Shown: positions 303-59,319 of the stretch, piece after piece
How positions within the stretch are numbered: the stretch's first letter is position 1
Layout: every line of letters begins with the position of its first letter
DNA from: Rhizoclosmatium globosum
Lineage: Eukaryota > Chytridiomycota > Chytridiomycetes > Chytridiales > Chytriomycetaceae
NCBI GenBank assembly: GCA_002104985.1
Contig: MCGO01000101.1
Location: 83,585-147,584 of the forward strand
Direction: 5' to 3'
DNA length: 64,000 nucleotides
Position numbers and translations under genes: made by a program
Notes under the pieces: model-generated
Told to the model about the DNA's origin: nothing
What the model saw: only the letters and a program-made list of their open reading frames with translations
The model's database searches: none

Positions 303-1369
303 ATGACCATCTTGGGACACACTGACAAGATCACCGTTCTCCTCAACTGGGCTGCTAATCCTTACCACGCCCCGCTCTACCTTGCCCAACAGCTCGGCTA
401 CTTTGCCGACGAGGGCATCAAAGTCGCGATCCTCGAGCCATCCGATCCTTCCGATGTAACTGAGATCATTGGCAGTGGTAAGATCCAACTCGTTCTTTAA
501 TATCAGATTCGGTCAAGTTTCTAATATTTCACCCCACATTCCAGGTAAGGTCGACCTCGGTTGCAAGGCCATGATCCACACCATCGCCGGTGCTGCCAGA
601 GGGTTCCCCGTGACTTCCATCGGAACTCTTCTCGACGAGCCTTTCACTGGCGTCGTGTACCTCAAGAGTAGCGGAACGATCACGGAGGACTTCCATTCCC
701 TCAAGGGCCGCAAGATTGGGTATGTTGGTGAATTCGGGAAGGTGATTATCGATAACTTGACTAAGCGTTATGGTATGACTGTGAGTGTTTTTTGATTTTG
801 ATTGATGTTGATTGGTTAGACTTATCCGGATGGACTCTTGATAACATTAGCCTGAGGATTATACTGCCGTCCGTGTAGGTATGAATGTTTCTGATGCCAT
901 TATTCGCGGTGTCATTGATGCCGGAGTTGGGCTTGAGAACATTCAACAAGTCGAGTTGGAGGAATGGTCCAAAGCCCAAGGCCGTACCGCTGATGACGTT
1001 GGAATGCTTCGTATCGATGAACTCGCCGACTTGGGTTGCTGCTGCTTCTGTTCCATCTTGTACATTGGGAACGACAAGTTCATCGCTGAGAATCCTGAAA
1101 AGGTTCGCGCGTTCATGAAGGCTGTCAAGCGTGCCACAGACTTTTTGTTGGAGAACCCAGAGAAGGCATACAACCAATACGTTGAAATCAAGCCGTACTT
1201 GGGTTCAGACTTGAACCGCAAGATGTTTCAACGCTCTTTGCCTTACTTTTCCAAGTCTTTGGAGAATGTTCAACGCGACTGGACCAAGGTTGTCAACTTT
1301 AGTAAGACTCTTGGTGTTGTTGATGAGTCCTTTGTCCAGAACATGACCAATGAGTTTTTGGACGTCTAA
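303..1369 (+). CDS. THI5: 4-amino-5-hydroxymethyl-2-methylpyrimidine phosphate synthase (THI5/NMT1 family)
   Basis: This enzyme makes the pyrimidine half of thiamine from PLP and one of its own histidines, a suicide reaction that needs iron. Exons 303-477, 545-780 and 851-1369 join in frame to 309 residues; both introns are GT..AG (67 and 70 nt). The protein has the family core: [17 protein letters not shown] near the N-terminus, KAMIH with the donor His near residue 70 and the PLP lysine at about 66, the EPFTG block, [10 protein letters not shown], and the cysteine motif LGCCCFC. It ends NEFLDV, about 30 residues shorter than yeast Thi5. The start ATG has an A-rich context (gaaaaaatg). A TPP riboswitch follows the stop codon, which points to feedback control by the end product. 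Identification is very secure. Confidence 0.97.
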
Positions 1370-1414
1370 TTGGGCTCTCTGTGCTCTTCTCTCTTTCTTT
1401 GTTCCTTCTTTAAA

Positions 1415-1494
1415 TTGCGAAACGGGTGCTTAATTGAGCTGAGAGGATAACCGTCATAACCCGAACATGGTAATGCATGCGTGGGGATTTGCCA
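1415..1494 (+). promoter_or_regulatory. TPP (THI-element) riboswitch in the THI5 3' UTR
   Basis: All hallmark parts of the TPP aptamer can be read in order, starting 46 nt after the THI5 stop. P1 pairs GCGAA (1417-1421) with TTTGC (1488-1492). P2 pairs ACGG (1422-1425) with CCGT (1451-1454), followed by the usual GGTGC. P3 is a short hairpin, CTT/GAG (1429-1438). The T-loop CTGAGA that senses the pyrimidine is at 1439-1444. P4 pairs ACCC (1459-1462) with the G-run at 1483-1486. P5 pairs CATG (1466-1469) with CATG (1476-1479) around GTAATG, followed by GCGTGGGGA. Deviations are minor: one weak position in P2, and G for A at the first base of the P5 loop. It lies on the THI5 strand, and the next gene is convergent, so THI5 is the only candidate target. 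Confidence 0.92.
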
Positions 1495-1498
1495 ACAA

Positions 1499-1504
1499 AA
1501 TAAA
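1499..1504 (+). promoter_or_regulatory. Polyadenylation signal AATAAA after the riboswitch
   Basis: A canonical AATAAA begins five bases after the riboswitch P1 helix closes. It is the first such hexamer after the THI5 stop, so the aptamer should be inside the normal THI5 mRNA 3' UTR. The position would let ligand binding affect 3'-end choice or splicing. Confidence 0.6.
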
Positions 1505-58847: not shown

Positions 58848-58929
58848 GGGCAGATGACCGAGCGGTCCAAGGTGCCACGTTAAGGCCGTGGTCTCTCCGG
58901 AGGCGTGGGTTCGAATCCCACTCTGCTCA
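58848..58929 (+). tRNA. tRNA-Leu (anticodon AAG)
   Basis: The acceptor stem pairs GGGCAGA with TCTGCTC (one G-U). The anticodon stem CCACG/CGTGG encloses the loop TTAAGGC, giving anticodon AAG. A long variable arm (TCTCTCCGGAGGC) marks it as class II, and the T arm contains GGGTTCGAATCCC. No intron. Reads CTT codons, and CTC after A-to-I conversion. Confidence 0.95.
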
Positions 58930-59247: not shown

Positions 59248-59319
59248 TCCTAGATCGTCTAGTGGCTAAGATTCCACCCTCTCACGGTGGCGACCGGGGT
59301 TCAATTCCCCGTCTGGGAG
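59248..59319 (+). tRNA. tRNA-Glu (anticodon CTC)
   Basis: The acceptor stem pairs TCCTAGA with TCTGGGA. The anticodon stem CCACC/GGTGG encloses CTCTCAC, giving anticodon CTC for GAG codons. The T arm has GGGGTTCAATTCCCC. Length 72, no intron. Confidence 0.95.

Follow-up and report, generated by a model that had tools for sequence, protein, structure and literature searches.

How might a TPP aptamer that lies behind the stop codon of a thiamine gene act on this gene? The question is raised by a locus of Rhizoclosmatium globosum (Chytriomycetaceae), which belongs to the chytrids, an early-branching fungal lineage. The stretch of DNA that we analyzed, referred to below as the window, comprises 64,000 nt (contig MCGO01000101.1). 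The features of the locus, all in window coordinates, are as follows.

303..1369, + strand: THI5/NMT1 gene, HMP-P synthase of 309 aa, with exons 303-477, 545-780 and 851-1369
1367-1369, + strand: THI5 stop codon
1384..1411, + strand: pyrimidine-rich tract in the linker between stop codon and aptamer (28/30 C/T in the best 30-nt window)
1417..1492, + strand: predicted TPP aptamer (RF00059, 62.3 bits; Rfam match 1412-1504)
1417-1421 with 1488-1492, + strand: aptamer helix P1 (GCGAA/UUUGC)
1439-1444, + strand: aptamer motif CTGAGA
1469-1475, + strand: aptamer loop L5, GGTAATG
1479-1481, + strand: aptamer motif GCG
1499..1504, + strand: AATAAA, the first one past the stop codon, a probable poly(A) signal and the proposed expression platform

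When its three exons are joined, the THI5 frame is open over 309 aa, and the last exon matches the Pfam NMT1 family PF09084 with an E-value of 4.7e-27, thus bearing out the identity given to this gene by the first-pass annotation. Among the best 120 of 1505 relatives, the top match is a protein of Rhizoclosmatium sp. JEL0117 (99% identity), followed by one from Podochytrium (92%). Several public chytrid relatives among the same 120 are labelled “glycylpeptide N-tetradecanoyltransferase”, which looks as if NMT1 (“no message in thiamine”) had been taken for N-myristoyltransferase.

The first-pass annotation had also proposed that a complete TPP aptamer follows the THI5 stop codon on the coding strand. 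A covariance search with RF00059 clearly supports this: the match at 1412-1504 (+) covers the full model (1-105) and scores 62.3 bits (E 7.9e-10), above the family gathering score of 54.3 bits. Counted from the stop codon, the Rfam match begins 42 nt on and P1 47 nt on; the AATAAA does stand directly after the aptamer, at a distance of 6 nt from the end of P1 instead of the five given earlier. The only other Rfam matches in the window above their family cut-off are two tRNA genes at 58848-58929 and 59248-59319 (both +, 52.0 and 54.2 bits). Downstream of THI5, a 451-aa frame on the opposite strand, which we take from reading by eye to be ankyrin-like, terminates at 1619, and on the + strand the next long frame begins at 2911; judged from these frames, the aptamer is therefore best placed in the 3′ UTR of THI5.

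To see how the arrangement is distributed, the whole genome (56.9 Mb, 420 contigs) was searched in two ways. With RF00059, 11 sites were obtained at E ≤0.001 and 7 weaker ones at E up to 10, and these counts are lower bounds because 49 of the 1822 candidates were scored. A strict core pattern, which finds aptamers matching the strict core only, so that divergent ones would escape it, gave 18 sites genome-wide, the same 18 as RF00059, and none in the reversed control. The genome thus carries at least 18 predicted TPP aptamers, each just past the stop codon of a thiamine gene. The family cut-off is reached by 5 of the 18. The seven weaker sites are whole aptamers with a long insertion in P3, for which the whole-genome Rfam search had returned the 3′ parts only (26.4-27.5 bits); with permissive filters and one copy scored per family, the following values were obtained, all of them under the cut-off.

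L039:2506-2667: MFS aptamer with a 76-nt pyrimidine-rich P3 insert, 51.5 bits
L041:2869-3055: SSF aptamer with a 91-nt pyrimidine-rich P3 insert, 39.8 bits
L016:4366-4529, − strand: THI20 aptamer with a 73-nt pyrimidine-rich P3 insert, 46.4 bits

A fast Rfam scan may, then, recover eukaryotic TPP aptamers with a long P3 only partially. The CUGAGA and GCG motifs, assigned as TPP contacts according to the accessible text of PMC9544697, are present in 18/18 sites. Standard pairs form P1, P2 and P5 in all 18, and the fourth pair of P4 is G.A in nine; from their sequence, these predicted aptamers would be expected to bind TPP.

The genes that precede the aptamers fall into seven families, listed here with THI6A and THI6B on one line.

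THI5: 3 copies, 3/3 with aptamer (PF09084)
THI4: 3 copies, 3/3 with aptamer (PF01946)
THI6A and THI6B: 2 + 3 copies, 5/5 with aptamer (PF02581, PF02110)
THI20: 3 copies, 3/3 with aptamer (PF08543, 8.3e-82, and PF03070, 1.5e-49, in the copy on contig C5, its exons joined by eye for the scan)
MFS transporter: 2 copies with aptamer (PF00083, one copy scanned)
SSF-type transporter: 2 copies with aptamer (identity through relatives)

For THI5, THI4 and THI6, nine of the 11 genes were scanned against Pfam, and the genome profile searches cover all 11. The THI4 count leaves out five weak matches limited to profile positions 1-65, three of them close to THI4 genes and the others on contigs C399 and C374, and the THI20 count leaves out two PF08543 matches, on C364 and C301. 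The pieces of the SSF-type gene gave no Pfam match apart from a doubtful one; its relatives are chytrid proteins, three of them with PF00474, a domain carried by 5 of the 15 matches. The MFS protein (L039:1109-2429 on C112, divergent from THI6A) and the SSF-type protein (L041:1352-2789 on C35), each with a 3′ TPP aptamer, are candidate transporters of thiamine or its precursors. The sole TPK gene found lies on a contig (C334) in which the strict core pattern detected no aptamer site. Hence, what had been noticed at one locus, a true TPP aptamer beside an AATAAA in the 3′ UTR of a fungal gene, recurs on all copies found of THI5, THI4, THI6 and THI20 and on two transporters.

Each of the aptamer-bearing thiamine loci is present two or three times, on different contigs, and TPK was found once. 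Over the last 300 nt of coding sequence the copies of a locus differ in 0.3-5.6% of columns, as in a polyploid, a hybrid or an uncollapsed assembly. At three loci (L017, L016 and L018, on contigs C5, C35 and C312), THI20 and THI6B stand in tandem, and 67-79 nt separate the end of the AATAAA behind the THI20 aptamer from the start codon of THI6B. Given this order, a blocked 3′ end of THI20 would lead to read-through straight into THI6B. The THI20 aptamer could also lie in the leader of THI6B; we regard this as less likely because it follows the THI20 stop codon in the same layout as the others. Close behind the THI6B aptamer on C35, a start codon and an open frame are present (L016:2047-2412, −); in C5 and C312 the corresponding frame is cut short by an early stop codon, and it may represent no gene or a decayed one.

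The layout is the same in 18/18 copies: stop codon, a linker of 39-79 nt, aptamer, AATAAA. In all 18, the AATAAA adjacent to P1 is the first one past the stop codon, and it starts no further than 5 nt inside P1 or 10 nt beyond it, a span taken post hoc from the data. The gaps between P1, for which the best helix without gaps close to the core was taken, and AATAAA are given below.

THI6B −5, THI20 −3, THI6A −1: AATAAA overlaps P1
THI4 +4, THI5 +6, MFS +6, SSF +9/+10: AATAAA starts 4-10 nt past P1

For comparison, we used 108 ends of stop-to-stop frames of at least 200 codons, drawn from the window and 200 kb of one contig, some of which will be exon ends. An AATAAA starting ≤10 nt from the stop codon was found in 3/108 of them. 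Past these control ends, the density of AATAAA in the first 80 nt exceeds that in the next 315 nt by a factor of 4.6 (20 vs. 17 sites), and it takes third place among hexamers, behind TATTTA and TTTAAT; it is absent within 300 nt in 79/108. Use of the AATAAA at the aptamers as poly(A) signal is probable. Only in THI4 and THI5 do all copies have a second A[A/T]TAAA in common over the following 300 nt, so that a conserved fallback signal of this form was not found across the families.

This constant closeness bears on the possibility that TPP acts on the finished mRNA, altering its decay or translation, with the poly(A) signal simply coming next in a compact 3′ UTR. Nearly the whole aptamer lies 5′ of the AATAAA and would remain in the mature mRNA, and in 4/7 families P1 pairing does not mask the AAUAAA, just as such a mode of action would allow. 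It leaves unexplained, however, why the AATAAA lies in P1 or within 10 nt of it in 7/7 families, overlapping it in three, when so few control ends have one that close to the stop codon. We therefore consider action on the finished mRNA unlikely.

The pyrimidine-rich tract upstream of the aptamer, also pointed out in the first-pass annotation, is well founded too. In 16 of the 18 copies, the linker contains at least 25 pyrimidines in 30 nt, and both MFS copies have 24; among the control ends, 5/108 have at least 25 in the first 80 nt, and none of the 108 reaches 27, a count that THI5 exceeds with its 28, whether the first 55 or 80 nt are taken. The tract was considered as a pairing partner of the aptamer and rejected, since with one copy per family its pairing did not rise above that of shuffled tracts: with the part from CTGAGA to P1, 0.0-0.2 pairs are expected in THI5, THI20 and SSF, and the values for THI4, THI6A, THI6B and MFS lie within one SD of those of 30 shuffled tracts. 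This test revealed no role for the tract.

The aptamer of plant THIC also lies in the 3′ UTR, and the first-pass annotation had suggested a plant-like control that arose separately in a fungus, with GGTAATG as a plausible donor hidden by ligand binding. In a control of this kind, TPP would alter the splicing of an intron in the 3′ UTR and only thereby the choice of poly(A) site, with GGTAATG or another sequence as the donor and the pyrimidine tract before the aptamer as part of a 3′ splice site. The proposed donor has to be rejected, because GGTAATG is the ordinary consensus loop L5 of the aptamer and lacks GT in 4/18 copies (both THI6A copies and two of the three THI6B copies read GATAAT). 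Other donors were sought in the form GTRNG only, from 60 nt before the stop codon to 250 nt past the AATAAA. Between stop codon and P1, such a sequence is common to the copies only in SSF, where the GTGAGC is the P1 strand itself; the remaining common ones lie downstream or inside the 3′ part of the THI5, THI6B, THI20 and SSF aptamers, and the latter, which might be counted in favor of splicing, were discarded as donors because they are aptamer sequence. On the acceptor side, P2 reads CGGG and not AGGG in 18/18. There are AG dinucleotides nearby, as P2 continues as CGGGAG in THI20 and SSF, and MFS reads AAGCGGG with an AG one base before CGGG. The long-P3 forms of THI20 and MFS, furthermore, have a CAG directly before GCTGAGA, behind the pyrimidine-rich insert, and the SSF form has none. 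Finally, the AATAAA is found at or past the aptamer end, unlike in plants (PMC10226581, accessible part). Within the splice-site forms searched, a plant-like set of parts is not supported, and we regard splicing-mediated control as improbable, even more so than action on the finished mRNA. Control at the 3′ end thus stands as the likeliest function, and the splicing part of the earlier proposal falls away.

Our preferred reading is that the aptamer and the AATAAA form a 3′-UTR TPP riboswitch in which the poly(A) signal serves as expression platform and its use is hindered by TPP; we estimate the probability of this reading at roughly 0.48. P1 is the helix that is stabilized by TPP binding. When TPP is scarce, P1 would be unstable and the AAUAAA readable by the cleavage/polyadenylation machinery, such that THI5 mRNA would be made. 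When TPP is plentiful, the aptamer would fold while leaving the polymerase and close P1 on or directly against the AAUAAA, thereby hindering 3′-end formation by pairing or crowding, and the transcript would read through and be lost. The further statement that this is a natural riboswitch with the poly(A) signal as its direct output, acting without splicing and governing THI5, THI4, THI20, both THI6 genes and the two transporters, is put forward tentatively, with slightly less confidence.

Folding was calculated with an energy model at 25 degrees for one copy per family (7 of the 18 copies). When P1 is forced, the probability of a fully free AAUAAA (all six bases) is 0 in THI6A, THI6B and THI20. 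The corresponding values with forced P1 and with the core lacking P1 are 0.093 vs. 0.118 in THI5, 0.344 vs. 0.484 in THI4 and 0.000 in both states in MFS; SSF changes in the opposite direction (0.067 vs. 0.032). Since the model pairs the AAUAAA in 3/7 families only, base-pair masking as the means in every family was given up, and crowding must be assumed for THI5, THI4, MFS and SSF. For THI6B, P1 is mostly unpaired in the Rfam register, and the overlap with AATAAA requires P1 to be shifted to a register with four unpaired bases. An extension of the MFS P1 to the AAUAAA, drawn by eye, was dropped, as the sequence of the other MFS copy is different at that place. Without ligand, the AAUAAA is clearly accessible in the THI4 ensemble (0.591) and in no other, the remaining families ranging from 0.000 to 0.118, and in none of the seven families does the energy model yield an on/off contrast of AAUAAA accessibility.

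The missing contrast in the model would fit aptamers that are conserved and yet do not switch their genes in response to thiamine supply, as is the case in a diatom, P. tricornutum, where a comparable arrangement was put to experiment with negative results (PMC9544697, accessible part). Against this speak the fact that no copy found of THI5, THI4, THI6 or THI20 lacks an aptamer and that the two transporters have one as well, and the low variability of the aptamers, with 3/566 variable columns outside the P3 inserts compared to 57/2105 in the last 300 nt of the coding sequences. Both suggest that the aptamers are in use, and we consider the non-switching alternative rather improbable, on a par with splicing.

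These counts are variable columns summed over families, the copies being from within one genome and closely similar at each locus. The linker has 27/406 variable columns and the P3 inserts 12/244; the stretch that begins behind P1 and includes the AATAAA has 0/59, followed by 15/143 and 25/151 in the next two 20-nt steps (40/294 together). When THI4, which shows hardly any variation anywhere between its copies, is left out, the stretch from P1 to AATAAA has 0/49 vs. 40/254 in the next 40 nt (Fisher p 8e-4), and its comparison with the upstream linker gives p 0.06. The three THI5 copies have no variable column in the aptamer, and their constant stretch extends 20 nt past the AATAAA, that of THI6A about 120 nt. 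By these column counts, the constant block takes in both the aptamer and the AATAAA. The sequence of P1 varies by family and is paired throughout in the register chosen for each. THI5 and THI4 are similar around the AATAAA. The seven families may share one ancestral copied cassette, so that the seven gaps should not be counted as seven independent events.

Taken together, the aptamer, its position and recurrence, the constant closeness of AATAAA and the conservation between copies make a strong anatomical case, from which we infer TPP binding, the use of this AATAAA as poly(A) signal, the way in which control runs, and masking or crowding as its means. The arrangement suggests that most vitamin B1 genes of this chytrid are turned off through hindered formation of the mRNA end. 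If true, this would add a further mode of eukaryotic riboswitch action to the 5′ or internal splicing and the splicing-coupled 3′-UTR control of plants. With 3′-UTR aptamers fixed to an AATAAA on most thiamine genes of one fungus, direct metabolite control of mRNA 3′-end formation becomes testable in a natural system.

How does this arrangement compare with known systems? The statements that follow refer to the accessible parts of the papers cited. With plant THIC, the chytrid genes share the aptamer in the 3′ UTR and a likely control at the mRNA 3′ end. In plants and green algae, P2 carries AGGG with the acceptor AG (PMC9544697), and the plant poly(A) site precedes the aptamer, within a retained intron (PMC10226581). 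Here, in contrast, there is no upstream GTRNG donor apart from the P1 strand of SSF and no AGGG in P2, and the first AATAAA is located in or past the 3′ strand of P1 in 18/18 copies.

A closer likeness is found in diatoms, where the THIC and SSSP aptamers also lie in the 3′ UTR and have no AG acceptor in P2 (PMC9544697). P1 of the P. tricornutum THIC aptamer overlaps a predicted poly(A) signal, AACAAA, just as the chytrid P1 lies on or near AATAAA; all three diatom-type traits, a 3′-UTR aptamer, P1 overlapping or near the signal, and P2 without AGGG, are thus present here. The authors of the diatom study held the same hypothesis of alternative polyadenylation, and the 3′-UTR aptamer over the predicted signal gave no thiamine response (PMC9544697). 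However, the diatom case concerns one predicted non-canonical signal with negative experiments, whereas in the chytrid a canonical AATAAA stands in this place in 18/18 copies from seven families, and the fungal targets, unlike those of diatoms, include THI4, THI6 and THI20.

The fungal TPP riboswitches of types I to IV (Mukherjee 2018) are located in introns, either of the 5′ UTR or internal, and, where the gene has a single exon, in its 5′ UTR (PMC5882874). The chytrid genes have the same aptamer and overlap with theirs in the set of genes (THI5/NMT1, THI4 and transporters) and differ in that 18/18 aptamers are past the stop codon of a thiamine gene. As only NMT1 and THI4 were found regulated among the fungal biosynthesis genes in the 2018 survey, fungal TPP aptamers are here extended to THI6 and THI20; an HMP kinase with a TPP riboswitch was reported in oomycetes, and the fungal 3′-UTR case named there, Postia eIF5B, was not validated (PMC5882874). 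In a survey of 156 medically relevant fungi, 5′-UTR and intron types were described (PMC11683625), and the accessible main text of this paper has no mention of “chytrid”, “THI6”, “THI20” or “polyadenyl”. Our literature search, with most subscription papers outside its reach, returned no report of this chytrid arrangement of 3′-UTR aptamer and AATAAA.

In Micromonas and other algae, 3′-UTR TPP aptamers are known, some of them on SSUA/THI5-like single-exon genes (McRose 2014; PMC4260697). They resemble the chytrid aptamers in position and in the inclusion of THI5-like genes; no mechanism was assigned to them there, and their relation to a poly(A) signal is not described in the accessible text, whereas in the chytrid an AATAAA stands at P1. 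The closest functional parallel to our preferred reading is an engineered one, a guanine-responsive poly(A)-signal riboswitch by Sporing et al. 2020, which lowered expression 5.2-fold in human cells (per PMC8230432). In both, the ligand would close the aptamer on the poly(A) signal and thereby lower expression. The engineered switch is synthetic and based on another aptamer, and the chytrid case would be its natural counterpart.
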